A program made the position numbers and the translations under genes. From Tardiphaga robiniae (GTDB lineage Bacteria; Pseudomonadota; Alphaproteobacteria; Rhizobiales; Xanthobacteraceae), in assembly GCF_013359755.1 (NCBI RefSeq), contig NZ_JABMCJ010000063.1, positions 1-64,000 of the forward strand: DNA of 64,000 nt, written 5' to 3'. The notes beneath the pieces were generated by a model. The model did no database searches, was not told the DNA's origin, and worked only from the letters and a program-made list of their open reading frames with translations. Shown here one piece after another: positions 7,676 to 24,331 of this stretch (position 1 is its first letter; each line of letters opens with the position of its first letter).

Positions 7676-9345
7676 CAACGCCTGCACTGCGACAGCGGAT
7701 CTTCGAGAATGCGAAGATCTGGACGTTCGACCGCGAACGGCCCACCGCGCAGGCTATCGCGATCGACGGCAACGTGATCGTGGCCGTGGGCGACCGCGAC
7801 GCCGTGCGCGCCGCCGCGCCGGATGCCAAACGGATCGACCTGCAGGGCACCTGTGTCATCCCGGGCTTCAACGACACTCATGCGCATATGGAGCGTGAGG
7901 GGCTGAAGACGCTGCGCCCCTCACTCGCTGGCGCCAAGTCTGTCGGAGACATCCTCGCCCGCATCCGCGAGGCTGCTGCGATCACACCACCGGGCGAATG
8001 GATCGTCACCATGCCGGCAGGCACGCCGCCCTTCTTTTTCGATGGCGTCTCCTCGCTCGCGGAACGACGCCTGCCGAACCGCCACGAACTCGACGCCGCA
8101 GCACCCGATCATCCCGTCTATATCCAGGGCGTGTTCGGCAACTGGGGCAAGCCGCCGGGCCACTCGGCCCTCAATTCGCGCGGGCTCGAACTCAACAATA
8201 TCGGACCGGACACACGCCCGCGCATCGGCGGCGTGGAGATCGAAGTCGATGCGCAGGGCGCACCGACCGGCATCATCGTGGAGCACAACAACCGCCCCAC
8301 GGTGGAATTCGACATCCTGCCCGCGGTGCCGCGCTTCGACTTCGCCGATCGCCTCGAAGGCGTTCGGCGATCGCAGCGCCTCTACAATGCCAAAGGCACC
8401 ACCAGCATCTATGAAGGCCACGGCTCCGCCGCCGAGACCATCTCGGTCTATCGCCGGCTGTGGGAACTGAACGAACTTACTATCCGCGCGGGCCTCGTGC
8501 TGAGTCCGAGCTGGAACGACCTGACCGAGACGCGCCGCATCATGCGCGACTGGCTCGCCACGGCACGCGGCAGCGGGCTCGGCGACCGCTGGCTGCGCGT
8601 CTCCGGCATCCACATCGCCTATGGTGGTGATCCCATCGTCGCCTGCTGCGCTCGCGCACATCTGCCCGACACCGGCTGGTCCGGCTTCGTCGAACAGGCG
8701 GTGTCGCCGTCCGACTTCCGCGAGGCGTGCTTCCTCGCCGCCGAATTCGACCTGCGCCTGCACACCATCGTCGGCGACCAGCTGCACGAGATCGTCCCGG
8801 TGCTGCGGGCGGTGAACGAGCGACATCCGATCGCTGAACGCCGCTGGGTCATCGAACATATCGGCCGTGCACGGCCTGAGGACATCCACGCGCTCAAGGA
8901 GCTCGGCATCTATGTGACGACGATCTCGACTTATTATCTCTGGAAGGGCGGCAGCAAATATCTGAACGAGGCCGATGGCGGCAATGGCGTCGTGCCGCAT
9001 CGCGCCATCCTCGATGCCGGTATTCCCCTGGCCATCGCCACCGACAATATTCCCTACGATCCGTTCTTCACGCTGTGGACCACCTGCGCCCGCGAGGAGC
9101 GCTCCACCGGCCGCGTGATCGGGCCTGATCAGCGCCTCGATGCCCATACGGCGCTCGAACTCTTCACCGCCGCCGGCGCTGCGCTCACTTTTGACGAAGG
9201 CTGGAAGGGCCGTCTGAAACCCGGCTTCGCTGCGGATCTCGCGGTGCTGTCCGATGACCCCACGACACTGCCACCGGCGGAGCTGAAGGATCTCTCCTGT
9301 CTGCTCACAATTGTCGACGGGCGCATCGTCCATGACGTACGTTGA
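7672..9345 (+). CDS. Amidohydrolase family 3 protein, YtcJ-like
   Basis: 557 residues, the usual length for YtcJ-type metal-dependent hydrolases. The N-terminal beta-sandwich (IFENAKIWTFDRERPTAQAI) leads to GFNDTHAHM, the HxH metal-binding motif after strand 1 of the TIM barrel. Downstream histidines occur in LHTIVGDQLHE and WVIEHIGR, the late metal/catalytic Asp in AIATDNIPYDP, and the C-terminal GRLKPGFAADLAVLSDDP is characteristic. Family members cleave amide or related C-N bonds. The start overlaps the system B permease stop, so it most likely acts on the imported substrate in the cytoplasm. Confidence 0.88.
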   Translation: MTTPALRQRIFENAKIWTFDRERPTAQAIAIDGNVIVAVGDRDAVRAAAPDAKRIDLQGTCVIPGFNDTHAHMEREGLKTLRPSLAGAKSVGDILARIREAAAITPPGEWIVTMPAGTPPFFFDGVSSLAERRLPNRHELDAAAPDHPVYIQGVFGNWGKPPGHSALNSRGLELNNIGPDTRPRIGGVEIEVDAQGAPTGIIVEHNNRPTVEFDILPAVPRFDFADRLEGVRRSQRLYNAKGTTSIYEGHGSAAETISVYRRLWELNELTIRAGLVLSPSWNDLTETRRIMRDWLATARGSGLGDRWLRVSGIHIAYGGDPIVACCARAHLPDTGWSGFVEQAVSPSDFREACFLAAEFDLRLHTIVGDQLHEIVPVLRAVNERHPIAERRWVIEHIGRARPEDIHALKELGIYVTTISTYYLWKGGSKYLNEADGGNGVVPHRAILDAGIPLAIATDNIPYDPFFTLWTTCAREERSTGRVIGPDQRLDAHTALELFTAAGAALTFDEGWKGRLKPGFAADLAVLSDDPTTLPPAELKDLSCLLTIVDGRIVHDVR

Positions 9346-9373
9346 ATCCGCAAAGCGCGTATAGTCCGCCACC

Positions 9374-10390
9374 ATGACCGATGCACCCCGCCCCATCATC
9401 CGCCTATCGCATAATGAGAGCCCGTTCGGCCCTTCGCCGCGCGCACTCCGTGCCATCGAGGAGAACGTTGCCCATCTCGACCGCTATGTCGGCGCCGAGC
9501 TGGACCAGCTGACTGCCGCCATCGCCGCGCATGAACGTATCGCGCCGGAGCAGATAGTGCTCGGCGAAATCCTCGACGTGCTCGGGCTGTATCTCTCCGC
9601 GCAATGCGGCCCCGGCGGCGAGTTCATTTATTCTGAGCCCGGCTATACGGCGCTGGTCGACGCCGTCGCGCCGGCCGGCGCCAAGATCATCGCCGTGCCG
9701 CTGAATGATCGGCTCGAAAACGACCTTCCGGCCATCGCCGGCGCAGTAAATGCGCGAACCCGTGCCGTCTATCTCGTCAACCCGCACAATCCGAGCGGCA
9801 CTGTGAGTCCGGCCGAGGAATTCATCGCATTCGTCCGCGATCTATCGAACCGCGTGCTGGTGATCGTCGACGAAGCCTATCTCGACTACACGCTCGATCA
9901 GGAACGGCGCACCGTGGCTGGCCTCGTGCGTGATGGCCATCAGATCGTCGTGTTCAGGACCTTCGCCAAGATCCACGGCCTCGCCGGTCTCGCCATCGGC
10001 TATGTGCTGGCGCCTGCCGAGCTTGCCCGATCGCTCAGGCAGATCGGCATTGGCGCGTTTCATGGCCTCAACCGCCTCGGCCTCGTCGCTGCTCAGGCAA
10101 GTCTGGCCGATCGCGAACATATCACCGCAGTGCGCACCGCGGTTGCCGCCGAGCGTGAGAGTTGGCATGCCTTCTTTCGCGCGAACGGCGTTTCCTTCTC
10201 CGCAGCGCAGGGCAACTTCGTATTCTTCGATGCCGGCCGGCGACACAGTGATGTGACTGCAGCCCTTGCGGCACGGGACATCGCGATCAAGCAATCTTAT
10301 CCCGCGCTGCCGACCTGGCTGCGGATATCGATCGGCCTGCCCGATGACAATGTACTGGCGCGCCATGTCGTCGCCGACAGCCTACGCTGA
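9374..10390 (+). CDS. PLP-dependent aminotransferase, HisC-like (fold type I)
   Basis: 338 residues. HisC/class II aminotransferase motifs are in order: SHNESPFGPSP near the N-terminus, VNPHNPSGT, VDEAYLDY, and RTFAKIHGLAGLAIGY, where the Lys of FAKIHG should form the PLP Schiff base. The C-terminal Arg in PTWLRISIG should bind the substrate carboxylate or phosphate. It sits 28 nt after the amidohydrolase, outside any histidine operon, so it is more likely a catabolic or biosynthetic aminotransferase of this cluster than true HisC. Confidence 0.86.
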   Translation: MTDAPRPIIRLSHNESPFGPSPRALRAIEENVAHLDRYVGAELDQLTAAIAAHERIAPEQIVLGEILDVLGLYLSAQCGPGGEFIYSEPGYTALVDAVAPAGAKIIAVPLNDRLENDLPAIAGAVNARTRAVYLVNPHNPSGTVSPAEEFIAFVRDLSNRVLVIVDEAYLDYTLDQERRTVAGLVRDGHQIVVFRTFAKIHGLAGLAIGYVLAPAELARSLRQIGIGAFHGLNRLGLVAAQASLADREHITAVRTAVAAERESWHAFFRANGVSFSAAQGNFVFFDAGRRHSDVTAALAARDIAIKQSYPALPTWLRISIGLPDDNVLARHVVADSLR

Positions 10391-10744
10391 TCACCCACGA
10401 TGGCACCGAACGCCGGTAGGAGTGATTTCAGACGAAAGTACGGCCACCAGCGCGCGCATCAAAGCGTGCGGAGGAAGGCGGCGACCGCCACGCTGCATCC
10501 GAATAAACGGATGCACCGCTTCCACGGCATTCCGCGCCCACACCTCACCGCCGCCAATCTGGCGAGCAGGCGTCGATCTGCTCTCTGAGAGAATGCTTTC
10601 GCAATATCTTTGTTCTCGAAAACTGCGCATGACAGTCGCCGCAGTTCGAATATCGCCTCGCAGCTCAATTCGGCAATTAATTGCTGCAAGGCGGATGTCG
10701 CGACGCCTACCCATTGTCTTGTCAAGCACACAAGGGGATGAGGC
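10391..10744 (+). other. Intergenic regulatory region before the amidase/system C operon
   Basis: 354 nt with no credible gene. It contains the perfect 12-bp palindrome at 10673-10684 and a -10-like CTACCC about 31 nt downstream of its centre. Small frames on both strands lack codon structure and ribosome-binding sites. Confidence 0.6.
10673..10684. promoter_or_regulatory. Palindromic operator candidate GCAATTAATTGC (copy 1)
   Basis: Perfect 12-bp inverted repeat, 60 nt before the start of the first amidase. Near-identical copies at 16261 and 20661 sit at matching positions before other units. A CTACCC (10707-10712) lies 31 nt from the palindrome centre, the spacing expected of a class II activator site at about -41.5. 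Confidence 0.6.
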
Positions 10745-12184
10745 ATGGCAATCCAGAGCACTGCTGGTCAGGCGAATGTATCGGGTGCAACGAGCGGCGC
10801 AGACGTCGCATTTCTTTCCGCTGTCGAACTTGTTGAGCTCTACCGTCAGCGACAACTGTCACCTGTCGAAGTCACGCGCGCAATTCTCGATCGCATTCAA
10901 CGGCTGGAGCCGAAAATCAATGCATTTGCCTTGCTTGATGCAGACTCTGCACTCGCATCCGCTGAAAAATCTGAACAACGTTGGCACCGCGGTGAACCGG
11001 CAGGTCTGATCGACGGTGTTCCGGTTGCGCTCAAGGACCTGATCCTGGCGAAGGGTTGGCCAACGCTGCGCGGCAGCCGCGCGGTCGATCCGAACCAGGA
11101 ATGGAACGAAGATTCGCCGGCGACCGCGCGCCTGCGCGAGCACGGCGCCGTCGTGCTCGGCAAGACCACCACTTCCGAATTCGGCTGGAAGGGGCTCGGC
11201 GACAGCCCGCTTACCGGCATTACCCGCAATCCCTGGAATACAGCGCACACACCGGGCGGCAGCAGCGGCGGCTCGGGCGCCGCGGCGGCGATCGGCTTCG
11301 GCCCGCTGCATGTAGCAACCGATGGCGGCGGCTCGACGCGGCTTCCCGCTGCACATAGCGGCGCCTTCGGCTTCAAGCAGACATTCGGCCGCGTGCCGGT
11401 CTATCCGCCGTCGCAGAACGGCACGTTGTTTCACGTCACCCCACTCACCCGCTCGGTGCGCGATGCCGCGCTGCTGCTCGACGTCATCGCGCGGTCCGAC
11501 CTGCGCGACTGGAATGCATTGCCGCCGCAGGACGTGGCGTGGCAGAGCGGGCTTGAGGACGGCGTCAAGGGTTTGCGCATCGCATATAGCCCGGCCCTCG
11601 GCTACGCAACGGTCGATCCCGAAGTCGCAACCATCGCCGAGAAAGCAGTCAAGGTTTTCGTCGATCTCGGCGCCATCGTCGAGCGCGTCGATCCCGGCAT
11701 CGAGGATCCGCTGCCCATCTTCCTGACTTTCTGGCAGGCCGGCGCCGCGAAACTGGTGGACAGCTTCGCCCCAGAACGGCGTAATCTCAGCGAGGCCGGC
11801 CTACTGGCCGCAGCCGAACAGGGCCGCGCGATCGACGTCGTGTCCTACGTGAAGGCCATCGATCAGCGAGAGGCGCTGGGTCGGCACTTCAGTCGCTTCC
11901 ATCAGTCCTGGGATCTGCTGATCACGCCCTCTACGGCATTTCCTGCTTCAGCCATCGATGCATCGCAGGCCGATCTTGCCACGCGGCCCATTCGCTCGCC
12001 CTTCACCTATCCGTTCAATCTGACGCAGCAGCCAGCGGCATCGATTCCGGCCGGACTGACCGCGGCGGGTCTGCCGGTCGGCCTGCAACTGATCGGTGCG
12101 AAATTTGATGATGCGAAGGTCCTGCGCGCAGCGCGGGCCTTCGAGATCGCGCGGCCCTTCGCAACACCGAAGGATCCCACGTGA
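10745..12184 (+). CDS. Amidase signature family protein (first of two)
   Basis: 479 residues of the Ser-cisSer-Lys amidase family. The catalytic Lys lies in GVPVALKDL, the Gly/Ser-rich signature is TPGGSSGGSGAAAAIG, and the nucleophile Ser is in DGGGSTRLPAA. No signal peptide, so cytoplasmic. First gene of the operon that continues into a second amidase and transporter system C; its stop overlaps the next start (GTGA). AGGGG shortly before the ATG supports the start. The family hydrolyses many carboxamides; the substrate cannot be told from sequence. Confidence 0.9.
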   Translation: MAIQSTAGQANVSGATSGADVAFLSAVELVELYRQRQLSPVEVTRAILDRIQRLEPKINAFALLDADSALASAEKSEQRWHRGEPAGLIDGVPVALKDLILAKGWPTLRGSRAVDPNQEWNEDSPATARLREHGAVVLGKTTTSEFGWKGLGDSPLTGITRNPWNTAHTPGGSSGGSGAAAAIGFGPLHVATDGGGSTRLPAAHSGAFGFKQTFGRVPVYPPSQNGTLFHVTPLTRSVRDAALLLDVIARSDLRDWNALPPQDVAWQSGLEDGVKGLRIAYSPALGYATVDPEVATIAEKAVKVFVDLGAIVERVDPGIEDPLPIFLTFWQAGAAKLVDSFAPERRNLSEAGLLAAAEQGRAIDVVSYVKAIDQREALGRHFSRFHQSWDLLITPSTAFPASAIDASQADLATRPIRSPFTYPFNLTQQPAASIPAGLTAAGLPVGLQLIGAKFDDAKVLRAARAFEIARPFATPKDPT

Positions 12185-13608
12185 GCTACCCTGCATCTGA
12201 AATCGAACTCGATCTGCCGAAGCTTTCGGCCGCCTATGCGGATGGATCGCTGACACCTTCGCGAGTGGTGGAGTCGATCCTCGACACGATCACAGCGCGC
12301 GGAGATGATGGCGTCTGGATCGGGCATGTCGGACGCGACGCGATCTTCGCCCGTGCGCGTGAACTCGAAGGACAGTCGACCTCCGATCGCGCGGCCGCGT
12401 CGCTCTGGGGCGTGCCTTTCAGCGTGAAGGACTGCATCGACGTCGCCGGGCTTCCTACGACATCGGCCTGCCCCGGCTATTCCTATGTCCCTACCCGGCA
12501 TAGTCCTGCGGTCGCGCGGCTGCTGGCGGCAGGGGCGATCTTGATCGGCAAGACCAATATGGATCAGTTCGCCACCGGGCTCGTGGGCGTCCGCTCGCCC
12601 TATGGCGTGGCACGCAACCCGTTCGATGCCGACTACATTCCGGGCGGATCGAGTTCGGGTGCCGCCGTCTCGGTCGCGGTCGGTCTCGTCAGCCTGGCGC
12701 TCGGCACCGACACCGGCGGTTCGGGCCGCGTGCCCGCCGCGCTCACCAACGTGGTCGGTCTCAAGCCGACGCGCGGCCTCATCAGCGGTGTCGGCACGGT
12801 GCCGGCTTGTCGCTCCATCGAAACGATCTCGGTGTTCGCGCTCACCGTCGCCGACGCGCAGGCTGGCTTCGACGTCATCCGCGCGCATGATCCGGAAGAC
12901 CCGTTCGCGCGGCCGCTGACGCTACGCGAAGCGGACGCATGGCCGTCGTTCCGCTTCGGCGTGCCCGCGGCGCCCTGGCTAGAGTTCTTCGGCGACACGG
13001 CGGCGGCCGCACTATTCGATGCCGCCGTCGCGCGCCTCACGGCGATCGGCGGCGTGCGCGTCGAGATCGACTTCGCGCCGTTTCGCGAAATCAACGACAT
13101 GCTGTTCCTCGGTCCATGGCTCGCTGATCGCTACGGCGCGCTGAAACCGTTCCTTGACCGCAACATCGACGCCGTGCTGCCAGTCACTCGCGACATTCTG
13201 CTGGGCGGTACGCAAATCACGGGCGCGCAGGTCTTTGCAGGTCAGCAGCGTCTCGCCGAACTGAAGCAGAAGATCGACGTCGGGTGGCGCGACATCGACG
13301 TTCTCTTCGTGCCGACGACGCCCTCCACCTACAGGATCGGCGAGATTGCAGCCGATCCCATCGCCCTCAATGCCCGTATCGGCACCTACACCACATTCGT
13401 CAATCTGGCCGATCTCGCCGCGGTCGCCGTGCCCTCGGGCTTCCTGCCGAACGGCCTACCGCAAGGCGTGACGCTGATCGGCCCAGCTCTGTCCGACCGC
13501 AGCCTCGCACGGCTGGCCGGCCGGTTTCACCAGCATTCCGGACTGCCGCTCGGTACGCGCGGTCTTGGCATCGCGCCCCCCATACTCAACAAGGAGCTTG
13601 TGACGTGA
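12181..13608 (+). CDS. Amidase resembling the amidase domain of allophanate hydrolase (AtzF-like)
   Basis: 475 residues from a GTG overlapping the previous stop. Motifs: catalytic Lys in GVPFSVKDCIDVAG, signature IPGGSSSGAAVSVAVG, and nucleophile Ser in GTDTGGSGRVPAA. The sequence GKTNMDQFATGLVGVRSPYG and the block VGLKPTRGLISGVGTVPACR are very like AtzF/DUR1 allophanate hydrolases. Full allophanate hydrolases carry an additional C-terminal domain after ~450 residues; this protein ends at 475 and lacks it. It may cleave allophanate-like N-carbamoyl amides or a different substrate linked to system C. Confidence 0.87.
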   Translation: MSYPASEIELDLPKLSAAYADGSLTPSRVVESILDTITARGDDGVWIGHVGRDAIFARARELEGQSTSDRAAASLWGVPFSVKDCIDVAGLPTTSACPGYSYVPTRHSPAVARLLAAGAILIGKTNMDQFATGLVGVRSPYGVARNPFDADYIPGGSSSGAAVSVAVGLVSLALGTDTGGSGRVPAALTNVVGLKPTRGLISGVGTVPACRSIETISVFALTVADAQAGFDVIRAHDPEDPFARPLTLREADAWPSFRFGVPAAPWLEFFGDTAAAALFDAAVARLTAIGGVRVEIDFAPFREINDMLFLGPWLADRYGALKPFLDRNIDAVLPVTRDILLGGTQITGAQVFAGQQRLAELKQKIDVGWRDIDVLFVPTTPSTYRIGEIAADPIALNARIGTYTTFVNLADLAAVAVPSGFLPNGLPQGVTLIGPALSDRSLARLAGRFHQHSGLPLGTRGLGIAPPILNKELVT

Positions 13609-14588
13609 CGAATTCAGAACGGTTTTTCGGCCATGCCAGGCGATTGGCCCGCACCGCGTTGGTGCTGGGCGCGGCATTCATCGCCTCGGCTGCGACGGCG
13701 CGCGCGGAGGATGTGACGATCGGCGCCGGCCTCTCCATGGGTTGGGGCCAGTTCTTCGTCGCCGATCAGGCCAAGACCTGGGACAAGCAGGGCCTCACGC
13801 CCAAGACCACGATCTTCGCCAGCGGCCGCCTCGCACTCGACGCTCTGGTCGGCGGCGGCGTGGTGGTGGCGACCGCAGCCGAAACGCCGGTACTGTTCGC
13901 GAATCTCAACGGCCTGCCGGTGCGCATCATCGCCACGCTGAATCGCCAGGAATCCTTCGACCTTGTCGCCGTCAAGGACATCAAGACGATCAAGGACATC
14001 AAGGGCCGCAAGATCGGCTATTCGCAAGGCACCAACGCACACTACTACCTGTCGAAGCTGCTGAAGGAAGCGAACCTGACTTTTGCGGACATCACCGCCG
14101 TTAGTCTCAATCCCGGCGATTTCGTCACCAGCCTGTCGAACGGGGCGGTCGACGGCTTCATCTGGACCGAGCCACATATCTCGCTCGCGCTCAGGCAGGG
14201 CGGCGACAAGTTCCATGCGATCCGCTCGCCCGGACTCTATGTCGGATTTTCCACCGTGATCGCGCTGCAATCGACCATCGACAAGAATCCCGACCTGCTC
14301 GTGAAGGTACTGAAGTCGCTGATCGATGCCAACGACCTCATCAAGAAGGATCCGAATGCCGCAGCAGCGCTGATCGCCGAGCGCATCAAGGTCGATCCGG
14401 AGATCGTCCGCAACTTCCTGCCGCGCACCCGCTTCAATATCGATCTCGAACGCGCGGATCTCGTCGCCGAACTGCAGACGCAGGCGAAATGGGCGATCGA
14501 CAACAAGCTGGTGCGGCCGGACGTCAAGGTGCCGGACTTTAACACCGTCGTAGTCGGCTCGTTGCTCGACAAGGCGCGTGAAAAATAG
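13605..14588 (+). CDS. ABC transporter substrate-binding protein, NMT1/SsuA family (system C)
   Basis: 327 residues from GTG 13605, which overlaps the amidase stop (GTGA). The N-terminus is a Sec-type signal (hydrophobic ALVLGAAFIASAATARA, then mature EDVTIGAG), unlike the Tat signals of systems A and B. The mature part has NMT1 features: WGQFFVADQAKTWDKQGL, GGGVVVATAAETPVLFANL and IKDIKGRKIGYSQGTNAHYY. It is followed after 24 nt by its ATPase. Confidence 0.89.
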   Translation: MTNSERFFGHARRLARTALVLGAAFIASAATARAEDVTIGAGLSMGWGQFFVADQAKTWDKQGLTPKTTIFASGRLALDALVGGGVVVATAAETPVLFANLNGLPVRIIATLNRQESFDLVAVKDIKTIKDIKGRKIGYSQGTNAHYYLSKLLKEANLTFADITAVSLNPGDFVTSLSNGAVDGFIWTEPHISLALRQGGDKFHAIRSPGLYVGFSTVIALQSTIDKNPDLLVKVLKSLIDANDLIKKDPNAAAALIAERIKVDPEIVRNFLPRTRFNIDLERADLVAELQTQAKWAIDNKLVRPDVKVPDFNTVVVGSLLDKAREK

Positions 14589-14612
14589 AAACGGCGTCAC
14601 CGGAGTCGTCGC

Positions 14613-15410
14613 ATGAATGTGAGAGTGGACGTTTCCACGGCATCCGCGGTCCAGCGGCCGCTGATCGCCTGTCACGATCTCGGACATGTCTATGACTCCG
14701 GTCGCGGCCGCACGGTCGCGCTTGACCGGGTGTCGCTGACCATCCAGCCCGGCGAATTCGTCTGCGTCCTCGGCCCGAGCGGTTGCGGCAAGACCACGCT
14801 GCTCAATATCCTCGCCGGGTTCGTGCAACCGTCGCATGGCGAGGTGCTGATCAACGACTATGCGATCGCCGGGCCGAGTCCCGAGCGCGGCGTCGTGTTC
14901 CAGGACTACTCGCTGTTTCCGTGGCTGACCGCGAAGGCCAATGTGGGTTTCGGCCTGCGCATGGCCGGGCGCCCGGCCGCGGAGCGCGATGCCGTCGCCA
15001 GCGATCTGCTCCGCCAGGTCGGACTGCCGGAGGCCGGCGACAAATATCCGTTCGAACTGTCCGGCGGCATGAAGCAGCGGATAGCGATCGCTCGCGCGCT
15101 GGCAACGCGGCCGGCACTGCTGCTGATGGACGAGCCCTTTGCCGCGCTGGATGCCATGACCAGGGCTTCACTGCAGACAAGGCTGATCGACCTGCAGCAG
15201 CGGAGCGCGCAGACGATCCTGTTCGTCACGCACAATATCGCCGAAGCGCTGGTGCTCGGCACCCGGCTGATCGTGATGTCACCGAATCCCGGCCGCGTGG
15301 TCGAGGATATCGCCGTCGATCTCGAACGGCCGCGGCGGCGCACCTCGCCGGCCTTCAACGAACTCTACGACCATGTGGCCCGCGCCATCGGTCTCGACAC
15401 GGCAGAATAG
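14613..15410 (+). CDS. ABC transporter ATPase, SsuB/TauB-like (system C)
   Basis: 265 residues. Walker A GPSGCGKTT, Q-loop FQDYSLFPW, signature LSGGMKQR, Walker B LLLMDEPFAALDA and switch VTHNIAEA are intact. It lies between the binding protein and the permease of system C with very short gaps, so the three genes form one unit with the two amidases upstream. Confidence 0.92.
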   Translation: MNVRVDVSTASAVQRPLIACHDLGHVYDSGRGRTVALDRVSLTIQPGEFVCVLGPSGCGKTTLLNILAGFVQPSHGEVLINDYAIAGPSPERGVVFQDYSLFPWLTAKANVGFGLRMAGRPAAERDAVASDLLRQVGLPEAGDKYPFELSGGMKQRIAIARALATRPALLLMDEPFAALDAMTRASLQTRLIDLQQRSAQTILFVTHNIAEALVLGTRLIVMSPNPGRVVEDIAVDLERPRRRTSPAFNELYDHVARAIGLDTAE

Positions 15411-15413
15411 GCG

Positions 15414-16238
15414 ATGGCATTCAAGCTGAAGCAAAACACCGTCGCAGGCGCGTTGGGCACCGTCGGCTTCTTTGCGGTCTGGGAGGCGATCAGCCGCAGC
15501 GGCCTCGTCAACAACATCATGCTGCCCGCGCCAACTACCATCGTGCTGTCGGGCTGGGAGCTGCTGGCATCCGGCGAATTGCTACGCCATCTCGGCGCCA
15601 GCCTGTGGCGCTCGCTGCTCGGTTTCGTTGTCGGCTCGGTCCTCGCTATTGCAGTCGGCGTCGCGATGGCGCAACTGCCGCTGCTGAACGCAACCATCAA
15701 TCCTCTCGTGCAGATGTTTCGCGCGATCCCTGCACTGGCCTTCGTGCCGCTCGCGATCTTCTGGTTTGGCATCGGCGAACTGTCCAAGGTGTTCCTGATC
15801 GCCTGGGGTGTGTTCTTCCCTGTCTGGGTCAATACCTATCTCGGGGTGCGCGACACCAATCCGTTGCTCGGCCGCGCCGCGGCGAGCCTCGGAGCGCGGG
15901 GCTGGCGCAAATTCGCCTTTGTCGTCATTCCCGGCGCCCTACCATTCATCATTGCCGGCCTGCGCGTCAGCCTGTCGGTCGCGCTGGTGCTGCTGGTCGC
16001 CTCCGAACTCGCGGGCGCTGCATTCGGCGTCGGCTATCTCATCCAGATGTCGCAGCAGGTGTTTCGCGTCGACTACATGTTCGTTGGCCTGATTGTGCTC
16101 GGCATCATGGGCGTGGTCGCCGATTTTCTGTTCGAAGGCGCCGTACGCCGCCTGCTGCCCTGGTATGGGGTTGAGAAGTCGCTGCGCGGAGCGGCCGGGA
16201 ACAAGAAAGAGCGCAAACTGGCGGAACCAGCTGCCTGA
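15414..16238 (+). CDS. ABC transporter permease, SsuC-like (system C)
   Basis: 274 residues with about six hydrophobic segments. The EAA-type loop includes LGRAAASLGARGWRKFAFVV. The C-terminal ~30 residues after LLPWYGVEKS are basic and hydrophilic. It closes the operon that started at the first amidase; a promoter region follows. Confidence 0.89.
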   Translation: MAFKLKQNTVAGALGTVGFFAVWEAISRSGLVNNIMLPAPTTIVLSGWELLASGELLRHLGASLWRSLLGFVVGSVLAIAVGVAMAQLPLLNATINPLVQMFRAIPALAFVPLAIFWFGIGELSKVFLIAWGVFFPVWVNTYLGVRDTNPLLGRAAASLGARGWRKFAFVVIPGALPFIIAGLRVSLSVALVLLVASELAGAAFGVGYLIQMSQQVFRVDYMFVGLIVLGIMGVVADFLFEGAVRRLLPWYGVEKSLRGAAGNKKERKLAEPAA

Positions 16239-16260
16239 TCTGCCCGACGCCGCGCAGAAA

Positions 16261-16272
16261 GCAATTTATTGC
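16261..16272. promoter_or_regulatory. Palindromic operator candidate GCAATTTATTGC (copy 2)
   Basis: Differs by one base from the perfect palindrome at 10673. It lies in the 87-nt gap before the DUF971/Apr-like operon, 53 nt before the start codon. A TTACAG at 16295-16300, in the context GGTTACAGAT, is 31 nt from the palindrome centre and resembles GGTTCAACAT at the same distance after copy 3. Confidence 0.6.
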
Positions 16273-16325
16273 GAGCCGTGTCCGCGACCGACGGTTACAG
16301 ATCGATGCGAAGCTGGAGATTGCAC

Positions 16326-16616
16326 ATGCAACCGACCGAAGTCGCATTGATCGAAGATGACACCATTCTCGCCGTCACCTGGGACGACGGCGAAACCAGT
16401 CGCCTGGATGCAGTGACCCTGCGCCAGGCCAGCCGGGCGGCGAGCGAGATCCGGCGCCATGCCGAGGGCGTGGAGCTGATACTGCCGCCGGCGTTTCGCA
16501 TGCAGAGTGTCGAGCCGATCGGCAACTATGCGCTGCGGCTATTCTTCTCCGACGGGCACGATCGCGGCATCTATCCGTGGGTGTATCTGCGCGAACTCGC
16601 CGGCCAGGCAGCGTAA
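16326..16616 (+). CDS. DUF971 domain protein (gamma-butyrobetaine-hydroxylase N-terminal-like)
   Basis: 96 residues matching the DUF971 layout: VTWDDGETSRLDAVTLRQAS, LPPAFRMQSVEPIGNYALRL, then FFSDGHDRGIYPWVYLREL. The GNYAL...F.SDGH..GIY.W..LR pattern is diagnostic. The cysteines often seen in the central part of this family are absent. GGAG precedes the ATG. Stand-alone DUF971 proteins commonly occur with iron-sulfur or Apc/Mrp-type proteins; here it opens the operon of an Apr-like flavoprotein, so a role in assembly or substrate handling of that complex is possible but unproven. Confidence 0.85.
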   Translation: MQPTEVALIEDDTILAVTWDDGETSRLDAVTLRQASRAASEIRRHAEGVELILPPAFRMQSVEPIGNYALRLFFSDGHDRGIYPWVYLRELAGQAA

Positions 16617-16626
16617 GGAACAGGCG

Positions 16627-18363
16627 ATGGACGAGATCAAGCAGGGCCTGTCGGAAATCGAATGCGACGTGCTGGTGATCGGCGGCGGCACCGCCGGCCC
16701 GATGGCTGCCTACAAGGCCAAACGCCGCAATCCCAAGGCGCGCGTGGTGCTGCTCGAAAAGGCCAATGTGAAGCGGTCGGGCGCCATTGCGATGGGAATG
16801 GACGGGCTCAACAATGCCGTCGTGCCGGGCTTTGCGACGCCGGAGCAGTACACCAAGGAAATTACCATCGCCAATGACGGCATCTGCGATCAGGCGCCCG
16901 TCTACAAATATGCTTCGCGTTGCTTCGACGTCATCCAGGAATTGGACAGTTTCGGCATCAAGTTTCAGAAGACCGAGAATGGCGATTTCGACGTCAAGAA
17001 GGTTCACCATCTCGGCTCCTATGTGCTGCCGATGCCGAACGGCGAGACGGTCAAGAAGGCGCTGTATCGCCAACTGCGCCGCGAGAAGGTGCTGATCTCC
17101 AACCGCTACATGGCGACGCGGCTGTTGACGGCGAAGGACGGCCGCATCGCCGGCGTCATCGCCGTCAATACGCGCAGCGCGGAATTCCTGGTGCTGCGCG
17201 CCAAGACCGTAATCTTGTGCACCGGCGCCGCCGGCCGTCTCGGCCTGCCGCAGTCCGGCTATCTCTGGGGCACCTACGAGAATGCGACCAATTCGGGCGA
17301 CGGCTATGCGATGGCCTATCATGCCGGCGCAGGGCTCGCGAATATCGAATGCTACCAGATCAATCCGCTGATCAAGGACTATAACGGCCCGGCCTGCGCC
17401 TATGTGGCCGGTCCGTTCGGCGCCTATACGGCGAACAGCGAGGGCAACCGCTTCATCGAATGCGACTACTGGTCAGGCCAGATGATGCAGGAGTTCTACA
17501 ACGAACTGCAGTCGGGCAAGGGCCCCGTGTTCCTCAAGCTCAATCATCTGCACAGCGACACCGTCGGCCAGATCGAGGCGGTGTTGCACAAGGTCGAGCG
17601 GCCGTCACGCGGCCGGTTCCATGAGAACCGCGGCACCAACTATCGCGAGAAGATGATCGAGATGCATATCTCGGAAATCGGCCTGTGTTCGGGCCATAGC
17701 GCCTCGGGCGTGTTCGTCGACGAATTTGCGCGTACCACCGTCACGGGTCTTTATTCGGCGGGCGACATGGCGAGCGTGCCGCACAACTACATGCTCGGCG
17801 CCTTCACCAATGGCGCGGTGGCCGGCGAACATGCGGTGGATTTCGCCGCCGAAGTCGACGTCCCCGATTATGACCGCGACGATGTCGTGCGCGAGCAGGA
17901 ACGCGTGCTGGCGCCGACGCAGCGTGACGACGGCATTCCGCCGAACCAGCTCGAATACAAGGCGCGGCGCCTCGTGAACGATTACCTGCAGCCGCCGAAA
18001 GTCACCGCCAAGATGCAGATCGGCCAGGCGCGTCTCGCCGAAGTGCGCGACGATCTCGACAATGCGATGGTGGTGCGCGACTCGCACGAGCTGATGCGCG
18101 CGCTGGAAGTGTCGTCGATCCTCGACTGCGCCGACATGGCAGCTTACGCCTCCTTGTTCCGCACCGAAAGTCGCTGGGGCCTCTATCACAACCGCGTCGA
18201 TTATCCCGAGAAGAACGAAGAAGACTGGTTCTGCCACAGCATCCTCAGCAAGCGCGACGGGCGCATGACTGCCGAGAAGCGTGCCGTCGAGCCCTATCTC
18301 GTCCCGATCGATGAGAGCGAACGCGACGCCTATGATCGCCAGCGCATACGCCAGCACGCCTGA
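16627..18363 (+). CDS. FAD-dependent oxidoreductase, adenylylsulfate reductase alpha (AprA)-like
   Basis: 578 residues starting at ATG 16627, with AAGGA at the preceding stop. The Rossmann FAD motif VIGGGTAGPMAA is at about 17-28, followed by LLEKANVKRSGAIAMGMDG, close to AprA. Further AprA-like blocks are ECYQINPLIKDYNGPACAYV, RFIECDYWSGQMMQEFY, EMHISEIGLCSGHSASGV and YSAGDMASVPHNYMLGAFTN. No Sec or Tat signal, so cytoplasmic. It is followed after 12 nt by a two-cluster ferredoxin, the AprAB order. There is no ATP sulfurylase or other dissimilatory sulfur gene in the window, so true APS reductase activity is doubtful; a reductive or oxidative step on an organosulfur or other imported compound is inferred. 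Confidence 0.88.
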   Translation: MDEIKQGLSEIECDVLVIGGGTAGPMAAYKAKRRNPKARVVLLEKANVKRSGAIAMGMDGLNNAVVPGFATPEQYTKEITIANDGICDQAPVYKYASRCFDVIQELDSFGIKFQKTENGDFDVKKVHHLGSYVLPMPNGETVKKALYRQLRREKVLISNRYMATRLLTAKDGRIAGVIAVNTRSAEFLVLRAKTVILCTGAAGRLGLPQSGYLWGTYENATNSGDGYAMAYHAGAGLANIECYQINPLIKDYNGPACAYVAGPFGAYTANSEGNRFIECDYWSGQMMQEFYNELQSGKGPVFLKLNHLHSDTVGQIEAVLHKVERPSRGRFHENRGTNYREKMIEMHISEIGLCSGHSASGVFVDEFARTTVTGLYSAGDMASVPHNYMLGAFTNGAVAGEHAVDFAAEVDVPDYDRDDVVREQERVLAPTQRDDGIPPNQLEYKARRLVNDYLQPPKVTAKMQIGQARLAEVRDDLDNAMVVRDSHELMRALEVSSILDCADMAAYASLFRTESRWGLYHNRVDYPEKNEEDWFCHSILSKRDGRMTAEKRAVEPYLVPIDESERDAYDRQRIRQHA

Positions 18364-18375
18364 GACGGAGCATCT

Positions 18376-18609
18376 ATGCCCATTGCCTATGCACCCACCA
18401 CCGTGCCCGTCGTCGTGGACGATGTCAAATGCATCGCCGATAAGGGCTGCACGGTCTGCGTCGATGTCTGTCCGCTGGACGTGCTGCGGATCAGCGACCT
18501 CACCGGCAAGGCCTATATGAAGTATGACGAGTGCTGGTACTGCATGCCATGCGAGACCGATTGCCCGACCGGCGCGGTGACCGTCAACATTCCCTATCTG
18601 TTGCGCTGA
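18376..18609 (+). CDS. 4Fe-4S dicluster ferredoxin, AprB-like partner
   Basis: 77 residues. Cluster ligands are Cys19, 25, 28, 32 (first motif with a longer CxxxxxC spacing) and Cys53, 56, 59, 63. The widened first spacing differs from the ferredoxin at 545, so the two are paralogues rather than copies. Cytoplasmic. Encoded 12 nt after the AprA-like flavoprotein and 1 nt before the HEAT-repeat gene, so all three are probably made together. Confidence 0.9.
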   Translation: MPIAYAPTTVPVVVDDVKCIADKGCTVCVDVCPLDVLRISDLTGKAYMKYDECWYCMPCETDCPTGAVTVNIPYLLR

Positions 18610-18610
18610 C

Positions 18611-19564
18611 ATGTCTGCATTCGAATCCTTCAGTGACGTCGCCGAGATCGCAGAAAATCTGCAGAGTCCTGATGCCTCGGTACGCCGCCTCACGGTGATC
18701 GAGATCGCCGAGACGGCGAGTGACGAGGCCGTGCCTCATCTGGTAGCGGCCATCAGCGACACGGCACCCGAGGTTAGGCTGCAGGCGGCGCGTGCGCTCG
18801 GCGAGTTTGATGGGCTTTCGGTCGCGCAGGCGCTGGTGCGCGGCGTGACGGATGCCGACCGTGACGTCGCATCGGCCGCCGCAGAGAGCCTCGCCGAACT
18901 GCGCGATACCGCGGCCGATGCAGCCCTGCTGCCGCTGGTGTCGCACCAGTCGGCCTTTGTTCGCGAAGCCATATTTAGAGCACTGAAGGAGCTGCGGAGT
19001 GCTATCGCCCTTGGCCCAGCTATCTCGGCGTTGCAGGACGCCGATGCTGCCGTGCGCGTGCAGGCAGTCGGCGTGATCGGCTATCTCAAGAGCAACGAGA
19101 CCCTGCCATCGCTGATCAGTGCGGCGCGCGATGCCGATGCGCAGGTGCGGCTCGCTGCGGTCAACGCGCTGTCCTTTGCCCGCAATGCGGTTGCTGCGCA
19201 GGCGGCTTCGGGCGCGCTCGCCGACGACGCCTGGCAGGTGCGCGCCGCTGCGGCCGAAACGCTCGGCCGGATCGGCGAGACTTCGGCTGCCGCGGCCGTG
19301 AAAGGCGCGCTCGGTGACACGTTCTGGCAGGTACGCCAGAAGGCGCTGCAATGCCTCGGCAAGCTAAAGGCGCGGGATGCCGTCCCGGCCATTCTCGGCA
19401 TTCTGGACGATCCCCTCCCCTCTCTGCGCAAGGAAGCTGCCGCAGCCCTGGGCGACATCGGCGATATCAGCGCGCAGGCGCCGCTCGCTGCGCATGCCGC
19501 CGATCCCGATCCAGACGTGCGCAAAACGGTGGCCTGGGCACTCAGTCGCCTTCCGACAGTCTGA
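18611..19564 (+). CDS. HEAT-repeat protein
   Basis: 317 residues built almost entirely of ~31-residue helical repeats of the PBS-lyase/HEAT type: VPHLVAAISDTAPEVRLQAA, then ALQDADAAVRVQAVGVIGYL, SAARDADAQVRLAAVNALSF, ALADDAWQVRAAAAETLGRI and similar, roughly nine to ten units. No signal peptide or catalytic motif. Such proteins usually act as scaffolds or chaperones. Tight coupling to the ferredoxin gene suggests it helps assemble or dock the Apr-like flavoprotein/ferredoxin complex. The gene ends 3 nt from the convergent Crp/Fnr gene. Confidence 0.85.
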   Translation: MSAFESFSDVAEIAENLQSPDASVRRLTVIEIAETASDEAVPHLVAAISDTAPEVRLQAARALGEFDGLSVAQALVRGVTDADRDVASAAAESLAELRDTAADAALLPLVSHQSAFVREAIFRALKELRSAIALGPAISALQDADAAVRVQAVGVIGYLKSNETLPSLISAARDADAQVRLAAVNALSFARNAVAAQAASGALADDAWQVRAAAAETLGRIGETSAAAAVKGALGDTFWQVRQKALQCLGKLKARDAVPAILGILDDPLPSLRKEAAAALGDIGDISAQAPLAAHAADPDPDVRKTVAWALSRLPTV

Positions 19565-19567
19565 TCG

Positions 19568-20260
19568 CTAATCCTTCAGCAAGATCTGTTCGAGCTGGTC
19601 GAGGCGGTGGATGCGGATAACGCCGCCATCGATGGAGACGATGCGCTTGGCGTGGAACCGCTTCAGCATCATCGTGACCCACTGCCGAGTCGAGCCCACC
19701 ATCGCCGCGATCTGGTCGTGCGTCACCTTGCGGTTGATGACGACCGCGTCGCCATCAGCCACGCCATAGAGCTCCGAGAGGTTGAGGATGTATTGCGCGA
19801 GGCGCTCGATCACCGAGCGCGTGCCCAGCATCTGCGCCATGGACGAATAGCATTTTCCCTTGGCGACCAGCCCGTCGATCAGCGCCAACGCGAAAGTGGG
19901 CATGCGCAGCAGCAGCGCCTGCAGTGTCGCGCTGGAGAGATGCGTGATATCGCAATCCTCAATGGCGACGCCGGACCACATATGGGTACCGCCGCCGGAA
20001 ATCGCTGGACCACCGATGAAGTGGCCGGGCGTCCAATAAGCCAGGGTGATCTCGCGTCCGGTCGGCGCGGTGTAGAACACACGCACCTGGCCGCGTTCGA
20101 TGATAAAAATTCCCTGATGATGCGCGCCCTGGCTGAAGATCGCCTCGCCTTGCCGCACCGTGAACTGGCGTCCGCTCTCGCGGATCTGCGCGCGCTCCTC
20201 CACCGTGAGGCGGTCGAGAAAATGGGCGCCATCGTTCAGGTCGTCGATCGTCTCGCTCAT
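19568..20260 (-). CDS. Crp/Fnr-family transcription regulator
   Basis: 230 residues from the ATG at 20260; the frame stays open to 20434, but the extra 58 residues match no domain and 230 is the family norm. Neither start has a strong ribosome-binding site. N-terminal cyclic-nucleotide-binding fold: FTVRQGEAIFSQGAHHQGIF and YWTPGHFIGGPA. C-terminal winged helix: HDQIAAMVGSTRQWVTMMLK. The recognition helix reads STRQWV where CRP and FNR have SRETV or SRETI, so it should not read the usual TGTGA or TTGAT half-sites. No FNR-type cysteine cluster is seen. It lies among units preceded by the GCAAT palindrome and is the best candidate to bind it. Confidence 0.85.
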   Translation of the reverse strand: MSETIDDLNDGAHFLDRLTVEERAQIRESGRQFTVRQGEAIFSQGAHHQGIFIIERGQVRVFYTAPTGREITLAYWTPGHFIGGPAISGGGTHMWSGVAIEDCDITHLSSATLQALLLRMPTFALALIDGLVAKGKCYSSMAQMLGTRSVIERLAQYILNLSELYGVADGDAVVINRKVTHDQIAAMVGSTRQWVTMMLKRFHAKRIVSIDGGVIRIHRLDQLEQILLKD

Positions 20261-20434
20261 GAACAGCGCCGACAGATCGCTCTGCCGCACAGCTGGCGCG
20301 GTTGTGATCGAGCGACCGGATGCAATGCCCGCGGAAGACGGTGATGTCCGGCATGCGTGCCTGCCACGCAAGGTCACGGCGGTTGCGGGAAGATACGCCT
20401 CACGAGAGTCCGAAAGCGCTTTCAGGCTGGTCAT

Positions 20435-20746
20435 CGCATTTTCACTTGTGCTGAAGGTCTTGAAGCAAGGCTAATGGTGCGGCGCAGAGGAAGTCCACTC
20501 TTTTGAGCATCTCCAGATCGACTTGAAACGCCTGATGCGCGGATCGACGAAGCACGAGAGGATTCGTCTGTAATGCATCGAACTCCTGCAAGATATTTTC
20601 GACGGCCCTCGCGGGCGCAACGCCGCGTCATGTTCGCTCGCCTGTGACGCCAGCACGCTCGCAACTAATTGCTTCAGTGGCATCGTGCACCGGTTCAACA
20701 TCCGGCCGGAGCGTATCCGACCACTCGGATAACAAGGGGACATGCC
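20435..20746. other. Divergent intergenic region between the Crp/Fnr gene and system D
   Basis: About 310 nt (nearly 490 if the regulator starts at 20260) with no convincing gene. It holds the third palindrome copy at 20661-20672 and a -10-like TTCAAC at 20694-20699. Confidence 0.55.
20661..20672. promoter_or_regulatory. Palindromic operator candidate GCAACTAATTGC (copy 3)
   Basis: One base different from the perfect palindrome at 10673. It lies 74 nt before the system D binding-protein start and 30 nt (centre to centre) before TTCAAC in the context GGTTCAACAT. Confidence 0.58.
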
Positions 20747-22156
20747 ATGAAACGATTTGGATTGGGGATTATCGCGGCCTTTGCGATGGCGTGGGCTGGA
20801 ACGGCGAGCGCCGAGACCATTCGCGTCGCACTCGGCACGCAGGATACGACAATCAATTGTGCCACCGGTGGGCTGATCGTGCGCGAGCTCAAGCTGCTCG
20901 AGAAGTATCTACCCCGCGACGGCAAGTACAAGGACGTCAGCTACGACATCCAGTGGAAGAACTTCACCAGCGGGGCGCCGCTCACCAACGAGATGGTGGC
21001 CGGCAAGCTCGATTTCGGCGCGATGGCGGATTTCCCGGGTTCGCTCAATGGCGTCGCATTCCAGAAGGCCGGCCGCCGCAGCCTCTTCATCACCACACTG
21101 TCCGGCAGCACCAAAGGGAGCGGCAATGGCATCGTCGTTCCGACGAGTTCGCCCGCGCAATCGATCGCCGACCTGAAGGGCAAGACCATCTCGGTGCCGT
21201 TTGCGTCGACGTCGCACGGCATGTTGCTACGGGCGATCAAGGCGCAGGGCTGGAATCCCGAGACCGACGTCAACATCATCACCCAGGCGCCGGAAGTCGC
21301 AGGCCCCGCGCTGCAAACCAACAAGATCGAGGCCCATGCCGATTTCGTGCCGTTCGCCGAGCTGTTCCCGTGGCGCGGCTTCGCCCGCAAGATCTTCGAC
21401 GGCTCGCAGGTGGATGCGCCGACCTTCCATGGCGCGCTGGTCGATGCCGAATATGCGGAGAAGTATCCGGAGATCGTGCAGGCCTATCTGAGCGCGAGCA
21501 TCGAGGCGGATCGCCTGTTCGCCGCCGAGCCGGAGAAATACAGCGAACTGATCGCCAAGGTGACGGGCATCGAGGCCGAGGTGAACTATCTGTTCCACGG
21601 CCCGCTCGGGCTGCAGACGCGCGGCCTGACCTGGAAGCCTGAATATCGCCAGGCGGTGCAAACCTCCATCGATACGCTGAAGCTGCTCAAGCGCGCCGAT
21701 GGCGATCTCGATATCGACAAGTTCGTCACGGACAAATATATCCGCGCGGCCTTCGTTAAGGCCGGGCGTGACTACGACACGGAGCTGAAAGATTACGCCC
21801 AGCTCGCGCTGAAGGCAAAGGACGCCCTGACCGGTGCCGAGATCACCGATGTCAGCCGGGTCGCGCAGATCTGGGTCAAGGACGAACCGTTGGTGCGGCA
21901 CTATGCATCGCCCGAGAACGCCCTGAAGGCGCTGGCGGCACTGGAAAAGGACGGCAAGAGCGCGCGGGTCCTCTACGCGCAGGACCGCGAAAGTGGCATC
22001 AAGCTGTTCGCGCAGCAGGCCTGGTTCGTGCGCGCGGCCAATGGCGAACTCGGCGCCTTCCTGTCGCGCGGCGCCGCCGAAAAATGGGCCGCGGCCAAGG
22101 GCAGCCGGGTGGTCGATTTCGCCGGCGCGCGTGAAGCCGTGGTGGTGAGCCGCTGA
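20747..22156 (+). CDS. ABC substrate-binding protein (NMT1 family) with C-terminal NosL-like domain (system D)
   Basis: 469 residues, over 100 more than the usual ~330 of this family. A Sec signal (MKRFGLGIIAAFAMAWAGTA, then SAETIRV) precedes a normal NMT1 binding domain (GKLDFGAMADFPGSLNGVAF; IADLKGKTISVPFAS) to about residue 350. The last ~100 residues (RVLYAQDRESGIKLFAQQAW, then FVRAANGELGAFLSRGAAEK, then SRVVDFAGAREAV) resemble the NosL family, small periplasmic proteins of which NosL binds Cu(I). ATG 20747 is the start; the frame is open upstream without a better signal. The gene overlaps the permease start (TGATG). The NosL assignment is by pattern and is moderately sure; the binding-protein call is firm. 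Confidence 0.82.
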   Translation: MKRFGLGIIAAFAMAWAGTASAETIRVALGTQDTTINCATGGLIVRELKLLEKYLPRDGKYKDVSYDIQWKNFTSGAPLTNEMVAGKLDFGAMADFPGSLNGVAFQKAGRRSLFITTLSGSTKGSGNGIVVPTSSPAQSIADLKGKTISVPFASTSHGMLLRAIKAQGWNPETDVNIITQAPEVAGPALQTNKIEAHADFVPFAELFPWRGFARKIFDGSQVDAPTFHGALVDAEYAEKYPEIVQAYLSASIEADRLFAAEPEKYSELIAKVTGIEAEVNYLFHGPLGLQTRGLTWKPEYRQAVQTSIDTLKLLKRADGDLDIDKFVTDKYIRAAFVKAGRDYDTELKDYAQLALKAKDALTGAEITDVSRVAQIWVKDEPLVRHYASPENALKALAALEKDGKSARVLYAQDRESGIKLFAQQAWFVRAANGELGAFLSRGAAEKWAAAKGSRVVDFAGAREAVVVSR

Positions 22157-22959
22157 TGGCAACGGCGACGGGATCAGGCGGCATGCATGTGGGCCGCCTG
22201 CTGGTGCAGGTGGGATCGATCCTGGCCTGCATTGCGTTCTGGCAGGTGGCGTCCACTCTGCGCCTCAATCTCGGGATCGTCACCTTTCGTAACGTACCGC
22301 CCCCGACCGAGGTCCTGCAGTCGCTGATCGTGCTGCTACAGTCACCCAAGCTGCTGGCGCATCTCGGCAGCAGCCTCGGACGCGTCTTTGCCGGCTACGG
22401 GGTCGCGGCACTCTTGGGGATTCTGCTTGGCTTTGCCATCGGCCGGTCGCGTGCAGCGAGCGACGTACTGCTGCCGCCACTGGAACTGCTGCGCCCGATT
22501 CCCGCGGTCGCCTGGATCCCGCTGTCGATCCTGATGTTTCCGTCCTCGGAACTGTCGATGATCTTTATTACCTTCATCGGCGCGCTGTTTCCCATCGTGC
22601 TCAATACCATTCACGGCGTTGCCAATGTGGATCGCCGCCTGGTCGCTTCGGCGCGCAGCCTCGGTGGCAGCCGCGCCGCTATTCTGTGGGAGATCGTACT
22701 CCCGGGCGCGGCGCCCAGCATCGTCACGGGCCTTGCGATCGGCATGGGAACATCGTGGTTCTGCCTGGTGACGGCGGAGATGATCTCCGGCCAGTTCGGC
22801 ATCGGCTATTACACGTGGGAATCTTACACCTTGCAGAATTACGCTGACATCATCGTCGGCATGCTGGTGATCGGCTTGTTCGGCATGGGCAGCAGCTGGC
22901 TGCTGACGACGCTCGGACATGTCCTGATGCCCTGGCGAAGCCCGATGGTGGCGCGATGA
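22156..22959 (+). CDS. ABC transporter permease, SsuC-like (system D)
   Basis: 267 residues with hydrophobic segments beginning LVQVGSILACIAFWQVAS and an EAA-type loop near VASARSLGGSRAAILWEIVL. Start and stop overlap the neighbouring binding protein and ATPase by 1 and 4 nt, so the three proteins of system D are translationally coupled. Confidence 0.89.
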   Translation: MATATGSGGMHVGRLLVQVGSILACIAFWQVASTLRLNLGIVTFRNVPPPTEVLQSLIVLLQSPKLLAHLGSSLGRVFAGYGVAALLGILLGFAIGRSRAASDVLLPPLELLRPIPAVAWIPLSILMFPSSELSMIFITFIGALFPIVLNTIHGVANVDRRLVASARSLGGSRAAILWEIVLPGAAPSIVTGLAIGMGTSWFCLVTAEMISGQFGIGYYTWESYTLQNYADIIVGMLVIGLFGMGSSWLLTTLGHVLMPWRSPMVAR

Positions 22960-23801
22960 AGGCACCGCGGGTTAACGGCCACGGCGTCGGCCTCGGACGA
23001 ATTGCGATCGAGGACGCATCGATATCGCTTGGTCATGGCGACGATGCCTCCGAGGCGGTCGCCGGTCTCGACATCTCTGTCGCGCCCGGCGAGTTCGTCT
23101 GCATCCTGGGGCCGTCGGGCTGCGGCAAGTCCACCCTGCTCGGCGCGCTGGCGGGGCACGTAGCAAACAGCGGCGGCAGCCTTACCGTGGACGGACAGGC
23201 GATTACCGGCCCGAGCCCGGATCGCGGCATCGTGTTCCAGCAGCACACCCTGTTCCCTTGGAAAAAGGTGCGTGAGAATGTCTGCTTCGGGCCGAAGATG
23301 CGCGGCATCGGCAAGGTTGTGCGGCGGCAGCTCGCGGACGAATTGCTCGCGCTGGTCGGGCTATCCGGCTTCGAGGAGTTTTATCCGTCACAATTGTCAG
23401 GTGGCATGCAGCAGCGTGTCGAAATTGCGCGCGTACTCATCAACCAGCCGCGCGTACTTTTGATGGATGAGCCGTTTAGCGCGCTCGATGCCCAAACCCG
23501 ATCGATGATGCACGAGTTGCTACTCGACATCTGGACCGAACGCCCCACCACGCTGATCTTCGTCACGCATGATATCGAGGAGGCGCTGTTTCTCGCCGAC
23601 CGCGTGATCGTGATGAGCCGGCGCCCTGGGCGGATCGTCGAGGATCTACGAGTGCCATTCTCGCGGCCGCGGCCGGCTGATATCGTCACCGAGATTGAAT
23701 TCGCGCGTCTGAAGCGGCGCCTGCTTCTGCTTCTCCGTCCGGATCAACAGTCTACCACGCTCCATGAATATCAGAGCGAACACGCATTGGCACCGAATTA
23801 G
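22956..23801 (+). CDS. ABC transporter ATPase, SsuB/TauB-like (system D)
   Basis: 281 residues. Walker A GPSGCGKST, Q-loop FQQHTLFPW, signature LSGGMQQR, Walker B VLLMDEPFSALDA and switch VTHDIEEA are intact. A ~25-residue C-terminal extension past the usual end (RPDQQSTTLHEYQSEHALAP) has no known motif. It ends the + strand cluster; no clear terminator hairpin follows. Confidence 0.91.
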   Translation: MKAPRVNGHGVGLGRIAIEDASISLGHGDDASEAVAGLDISVAPGEFVCILGPSGCGKSTLLGALAGHVANSGGSLTVDGQAITGPSPDRGIVFQQHTLFPWKKVRENVCFGPKMRGIGKVVRRQLADELLALVGLSGFEEFYPSQLSGGMQQRVEIARVLINQPRVLLMDEPFSALDAQTRSMMHELLLDIWTERPTTLIFVTHDIEEALFLADRVIVMSRRPGRIVEDLRVPFSRPRPADIVTEIEFARLKRRLLLLLRPDQQSTTLHEYQSEHALAPN

Positions 23802-24236: not shown

Positions 24237-24331
24237 TTCCGACGTCGCGTAACCCGGGATCTTACGTGCTTGGCTGCCAGGCAACATTCGGGGTCCGACG
24301 CTACTGCAGGTGATCCAGAGGAGCAATTGGG

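Follow-up and report, generated by a model that had tools for sequence, protein, structure and literature searches.

The 64,000-nt stretch of the Tardiphaga robiniae genome analysed here (the window) contains three nearly identical 12-bp palindromes, each located by exact match in intergenic DNA before a set of genes and listed without strand. Site 1, GCAATTAATTGC (10673-10684), precedes a forward-strand unit of two amidases, an SsuA-type binding protein, an ATPase and a permease (unit 1, 10745-16238; assigned by Pfam and NCBIfam). Site 2, GCAATTTATTGC (16261-16272), precedes a forward-strand operon (unit 2, 16326-19564) encoding a DUF971 protein (16326-16616), a flavoprotein resembling adenosine 5′-phosphosulfate (APS) reductase (16627-18363; Apr-like below), a 4Fe-4S ferredoxin (18376-18609) and a HEAT-repeat protein (18611-19564), named from profile and PDB matches and from the same gene order in annotated orthologues. 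Site 3, GCAACTAATTGC (20661-20672), lies in the gap between a reverse-strand gene for a Crp/Fnr-family regulator (19568-20434) and the forward-strand ATP-binding cassette (ABC) system D, which comprises an SsuA/taurine-type binding protein, a permease and an ATPase (unit 3, 20747-23801). We propose that the palindromes are operators of this Crp/Fnr protein, whose gene separates units 2 and 3, and that it would act as a class II activator of one local regulon; we put the probability of this reading at roughly 0.8.

The sites end 60, 53 and 74 nt before the start codons at 10745, 16326 and 20747, in agreement with the 53-74 nt before the first gene of each unit given in an earlier note on this sequence, which also had the positions and letters of all three palindromes exactly right. 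Its statement that they differ by one base each is true of site 1 against site 2 and of site 1 against site 3; sites 2 and 3 differ by two bases. Intergenic DNA accounts for about 6% of the region 875-23801 in the gene list of this analysis and holds all three sites.

The pattern GCAAYTWATTGC matches exactly at three places in the 6,318,076-base genome (94 contigs), and these are sites 1-3, belonging to three units within 10 kb. The check for copies elsewhere in the genome, which the earlier note had called for, thus returned no exact one outside the cluster. By composition and by Markov models of the window, 0.5-1.3 places are expected per genome. For 10-kb stretches that contain three exact matches, the expectation is 6e-8 to 9e-7, a figure that overstates the rarity because the pattern was derived from the same three sites. 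Looser forms are not in excess: GCAAN4TTGC occurs three times in the window (1.38 expected; 18 of 100 shuffles reach three), GCAAYTWATTGC with two mismatches occurs there nine times (9.13 expected), and up to two mismatches yield 347+353 places in the genome versus 377+357 for the reversed pattern. The palindrome signal sits in the exact words and their places, and loose counts are uninformative. Since there is no genome-wide excess of two-mismatch forms, the regulon looks small and local. Among 20 of the 21 one-mismatch places listed outside the window, we found no clear additional target: 12 fall in open reading frames (ORFs) of at least 900 nt with a third-position GC content (GC3) of at least 0.69, four in short or lower-GC3 ORFs and four in no ORF. 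In the family, GCAATWAHTTGC was matched in 249 of 391 genomes at low per-genome counts near the control, from which no statistic was drawn.

Conservation in other genera provides a check that is independent of how the pattern was written. Loci were collected by a profile search of genome contigs with an alignment of four regulators, and the best 80 of 348 were used, divided into a near group (L042-L087 and L115) and a distant group (L088-L121 without L115); the DUF971 query of the locus comparison extends beyond the stop codon, and the ferredoxin query lacks the first residue. Identical or closely similar words occupy the corresponding positions of orthologous clusters in Bradyrhizobium, Afipia, Nitrobacter, Mesorhizobium, Sinorhizobium and Rhizobium. 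At site 2, an identical GCAATTTATTGC precedes the DUF971/Apr-like operon in 25 of the 26 DUF971-holding loci of L042-L087, and L071 has GCAATTAGTTTC; measured against the consensus used here, the T of GCAATTTATTGC scores as one mismatch. Site 3 is represented upstream of the regulator by a word that differs from GCAAYTARTTGC at no more than one base at 38 of the 47 near-group loci, and seven of nine loci with an orthologous amidase (identity at least 55%) have a site 1 within one mismatch, the misses being L072 and L074. In the distant group, 10 of 14 loci with the DUF971 gene and enough upstream DNA carry a site within one mismatch of KCAAYTARTTGC before it; the words at L094, L106 and L117 differ by two mismatches, and L116 lacks a site. 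Anywhere in the stretch, RCAAYTARTTGY is present within one mismatch at 58 of the 80 loci.

A template-free count of palindromic 10-mers in the 80 loci placed CAATTAATTG top in excess (12 versus 0.4 expected, in 11 of 80 loci); among 12-mers ACCAGGCCTGGT outranks GCAATTAATTGC, and among 8-mers AATTAATT is second. These counts are not independent because the loci are related. When the promoters are aligned on the palindrome, the flanks have diverged outside the 12-mer and a few adjoining bases. The idea that chance alone placed three palindromes in intergenic DNA agrees with the lack of excess among loose and two-mismatch forms in window and genome, and is contradicted by the recurrence of the same words at orthologous places despite these diverged flanks; we consider it negligible. 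The site is therefore kept upstream of orthologous genes, as the earlier note had asked to be checked, and the recurrence of all three sites at matching positions in other genera argues for the common, small regulon that it had suggested. The site 3 orthologues of L042-L087 are lopsided, with base 5 free to vary and TAATTGC plus the next two T nearly fixed, which would fit tighter constraint on the half facing the promoter.

The palindrome also goes with the regulator. Within about 1.5 kb either side of each gene, exact KCAANTARTTGC occurs at 20 of 25 regulator-clade loci in the family (L127-L151) and at none of 24 loci in the genus that encode other Crp/Fnr proteins (Fisher 2e-9); four of the five misses have one-mismatch forms, and L135 has none. 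Across 391 family genomes, the regulator (E≤1e-30) is encoded in 99 of 100 with an Apr-like gene versus 26 of 291 without one, the single Apr-bearing genome that lacks it (G233) being an assembly of about 800 contigs. A class-wide search returned the Apr-like gene in 4 of 385 genomes, too few for use. Thirteen loci (L053-L064 and L115) keep the regulator and a site within one mismatch, with no Apr-like gene in the stretch covered.

Plasmids were sampled as 16 of 51 records with an Apr-like gene. The site is present in 7/7 loci with a regulator bearing the recognition helix TRQW and in 0/9 without it (Fisher 9e-5), a contrast that is partly taxonomic. In six TRQW loci (L205-L209, L220), exact KCAANTWRTTGC precedes the DUF971/Apr operon, and in L211 it stands before an ABC-DUF971-Apr run next to the regulator. 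None of the regulator-less loci (L210, L212-L219) has exact KCAANTWRTTGC before the operon: L218 (Nostoc) has it only inside another gene, and L213, L214 and L219 have the one-mismatch form TCAACCAGTTGC at 5514-5529, in L214 within its GntR gene. A six-frame scan of L217 gave a TRQS string, yet no Crp/Fnr gene is annotated there. In four of the nine (L212, L214, L215, L217; plasmids of Betaproteobacteria and Acidithiobacillus), a GntR gene stands directly before the flavoprotein gene, which is, judged by gene order, a swap of regulator over the same Apr-like enzyme; at L210 and L218 no regulator gene is annotated at the operon, and L213, L216 and L219 carry no gene annotation. On Mesorhizobium japonicum pMLa (L205, 11804-13444), the annotated regulator is short (405 nt) and adjoins an IS110 transposase; site 2 is intact.

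Operators of the MarR/OhrR type have AT-rich palindromic cores like CAATTAATTG, and this apparent likeness is what speaks for a different DNA-binding protein, such as a MarR-family member encoded elsewhere in the genome, as reader of the sites. We hold that to be very unlikely: no MarR gene or other regulator is found among the cluster genes scanned (part of the window, extended by ten ORFs), the site still accompanies the Crp/Fnr gene at loci that have no Apr-like gene in the stretch covered, and it is not found before the operon at plasmid loci where the Crp/Fnr gene is absent. These co-occurrences back the neighbouring Crp/Fnr protein that the earlier note had named as binder, and we conclude that the cluster's own protein very probably binds the palindromes.

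To examine the promoter geometry, we aligned the promoters on the palindrome and down-weighted similar sequences, which left 44, 42 and 9 rows for sites 2, 3 and 1 (effective numbers 33, 23.3 and 6); the site 1 set is small, and three of the 42 regulator-side rows (L038, L113, L114) are sites nearer DUF971, taken from the opposite side. Downstream of the palindrome, all three families have in common an A at 30.5 nt from its centre (weighted, 100% for site 1, 87% for site 3 and 54% for site 2). It belongs to a forward-strand −10-like element in each case: TACCCA at 10708-10713, 29.5 nt from the centre of site 1, all nine rows by weight having T at −12 and A at −11; TACAGA at 16296-16301, likewise 29.5 nt from the centre of site 2, with T at −12 (48%), A at −11 (54%) and T at −7 (48%); and CAACAT at 20696-20701, in register with the GATAGT and CATAAA of the orthologues, with A at −11 (87%) and T at −7 (56%). 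The −10 hexamers noted earlier at 30-31 nt from the centres are thus real elements, with the conserved register one base later at sites 1 and 2 and two bases later at site 3. An A at 30.5 nt, as part of a weak −10 element, would place the palindrome centre at −41.5, the class II position known for CRP and FNR, and its recurrence at one distance in three promoter families lends comparative support to the class II spacing first suggested from the window. Transcription starts are predicted at about 10720, 16308 and 20708.

A search of 10390-20800 for σ70 −35/−10 pairs found none at the three promoters; its one match falls within the coding sequence of the second amidase, with 1.7 expected by chance. 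The missing pair and the spacing fit activator-dependent class II promoters. The same Crp/Fnr protein might instead repress, its site at −41.5 covering the −35 region and blocking RNA polymerase until an effector releases it. Site position alone is compatible with such a block; the lack of a −35/−10 pair, together with a conserved distance to the −10 element such as contact between the protein and the polymerase would require, makes repression improbable to our mind. Under activation, a regulator dimer would bind GCAA-N4-TTGC-like DNA centred at −41.5 and would, as a class II activator, drive three weak promoters that lack a proper −35 element. The regulon so switched on would consist of two ABC importers, the amidases and the operon for the DUF971 protein, the Apr-like flavoprotein, the ferredoxin and the HEAT protein. 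This mechanism is built on four things that can be read directly from the DNA, namely the sites, their positional conservation, their spacing to the −10 element and their co-occurrence with the regulator; from these we infer binding, activation rather than repression, and the start sites.

Several observations weigh against activation by the neighbouring regulator. Nine of the 47 near-group loci (L068-L070, L073-L075, L078, L080, L081) have no site within one mismatch beside the regulator, and only two of 33 distant loci carry one upstream of it. Eight of the nine regulator-less plasmid loci lie outside the Alphaproteobacteria, hence the taxonomic share of the plasmid contrast; Methylocystis (L210) is the alphaproteobacterial case. 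Nineteen paralogue loci in other settings (L185-L203) include exact sites in L190 and L198, nine loci without a site and eight whose sites are all one-mismatch forms, such as may turn up by chance in 8.7 kb. In the promoters, the site 3 family shows no conserved base at −12, having C or G there (the families of site 1, 100%, and site 2, 48%, have T), and the site 1 family has A at −7.

The regulator itself is a member of the Crp/Fnr superfamily, with an N-terminal domain of the cyclic nucleotide-binding type (PF00027, 59.3 bits; gathering cut-off 27.5) and a C-terminal Crp-like helix-turn-helix (PF13545, 52.7 bits; cut-off 27). Its PDB profile matches are GlxR-like regulators (4byy, 3r6s) and also E. 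coli CRP. This domain architecture and a palindrome predicted to be centred near −41.5 are shared with activators of the CRP, FNR and GlxR type. Unlike CRP and FNR, however, it scores 51.5 and 58 bits against curated cut-offs of 266 and 228. CRP reads TGTGA-N6-TCACA and FNR reads TTGAT-N4-ATCAA, both different from the GCAA-N4-TTGC operator predicted here. In an alignment of 85 regulators (the window, the 80 loci and four further stretches), the recognition helix is TRQW in all 84 rows that cover it. This helix lacks the glutamate that follows the first arginine in CRP and FNR, and in the PDB alignment R-Q-W stands opposite the R-E-T of GlxR, with Q opposite E, which makes a changed DNA specificity plausible. 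TRQS replaces TRQW in the paralogue loci L185, L191, L195 and L203 and in L021; L021 and L195 share the word ACAATTAATTGC.

In the cyclic AMP (cAMP) pocket of CRP, GE and R are the phosphate-binding residues. Aligned to GlxR, which has GEL...RTSS, the regulator of the window has GGP...HxWS, with GGP in place of GEL and H in place of R. All 85 rows have GGP and W-S, and 84 have H. FNR senses oxygen through an Fe-S cluster held by N-terminal cysteines. No FNR-type N-terminal cysteine cluster is conserved across the 85 aligned regulators: the columns with cysteine in more than five rows hold 9, 7, 59, 35 and 76, the last being a C-helix cysteine. With this pocket and no such cluster, neither cAMP nor an N-terminal Fe-S cluster is likely to be the effector. 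The SsuA/taurine-type proteins, the amidases and the Apr-like enzyme hint at an organosulfur or amide effector, which is a guess.

Some loci carry more than one site. At L038 (17923, 17968), L130 (2800, 2844) and L131 (844, 888), two words precede DUF971, the main site and, 44-45 bp (some four turns of the DNA helix) upstream of it, GCAAGGAATTGC; the two are possibly tandem operators. GCAAGGAATTGC stands alone before DUF971 in L211 (5523). At L036 (18019, 18094) and L040 (15027, 15102), GCAATTAATTGC and ACAACTAATTGC occur 75 bp apart in the intergenic gap beside DUF971 and the flavoprotein gene.

Turning to the cluster genes, the name DUF971 was taken from annotated orthologues, and NCBIfam gave no match for the copy in the window. 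The best NCBIfam model for the flavoprotein is NF006131, "fumarate reductase/succinate dehydrogenase flavoprotein subunit" (1073.5 bits; cut-off 587). It resembles APS/3′-phosphoadenosine 5′-phosphosulfate (PAPS) reductase AprAB in being related to the alpha subunits (8a8o, E 2.5e-57) and in having a two-cluster ferredoxin gene next to its own; unlike AprA, it scores 150 bits on TIGR02061 (aprA; cut-off 641.75). The second amidase (12181-13608, 475 aa) exceeds the cut-offs of two allophanate hydrolase models (576.6 versus 487 and 533.4 versus 511.05) and matches only the first part of these profiles. Five ABC binding proteins of the NMT1/SsuA type are encoded within 25 kb (2824-4380, 4999-6042, 13284-14588, 20747-22156 and 26239-27426), and the palindrome is present at only two of these five systems. 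A rhodanese-domain protein encoded close by (33170-34105, reverse strand) would fit a sulfur theme. An Rfam scan of 9000-24600 gave no match at the gathering threshold.

A search of titles and abstracts found no description of the 12-mer, its 10-base core, the cluster or the clade, which is weak evidence of novelty, most subscription papers lying outside the search. The full 12-mer does occur in one paper, PMC10470537, which, by its title, deals with an unrelated subject.

Taken together, the data support a known kind of regulator, Crp/Fnr, with what appears to be a new DNA specificity and a local regulon of class II type. On balance, we lean slightly towards a broader picture: an Alphaproteobacteria-wide Crp/Fnr subfamily with its own DNA code (GCAA-N4-TTGC and an R-Q-W helix) and its own pocket (GGP...HxWS) may serve as dedicated class II activator of an unstudied Apr-like pathway fed by sulfonate-type importers and amidases, with GntR replacing it in Betaproteobacteria. 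A widespread Crp/Fnr clade of which we found no description would thereby be assigned a DNA code, the genes that it targets and the geometry of their promoters, and would be tied to an operon (DUF971, Apr-like flavoprotein, ferredoxin and HEAT protein) on which we found no paper. The three promoters could act as reporters for the effector and, thereby, for the substrate of the pathway.

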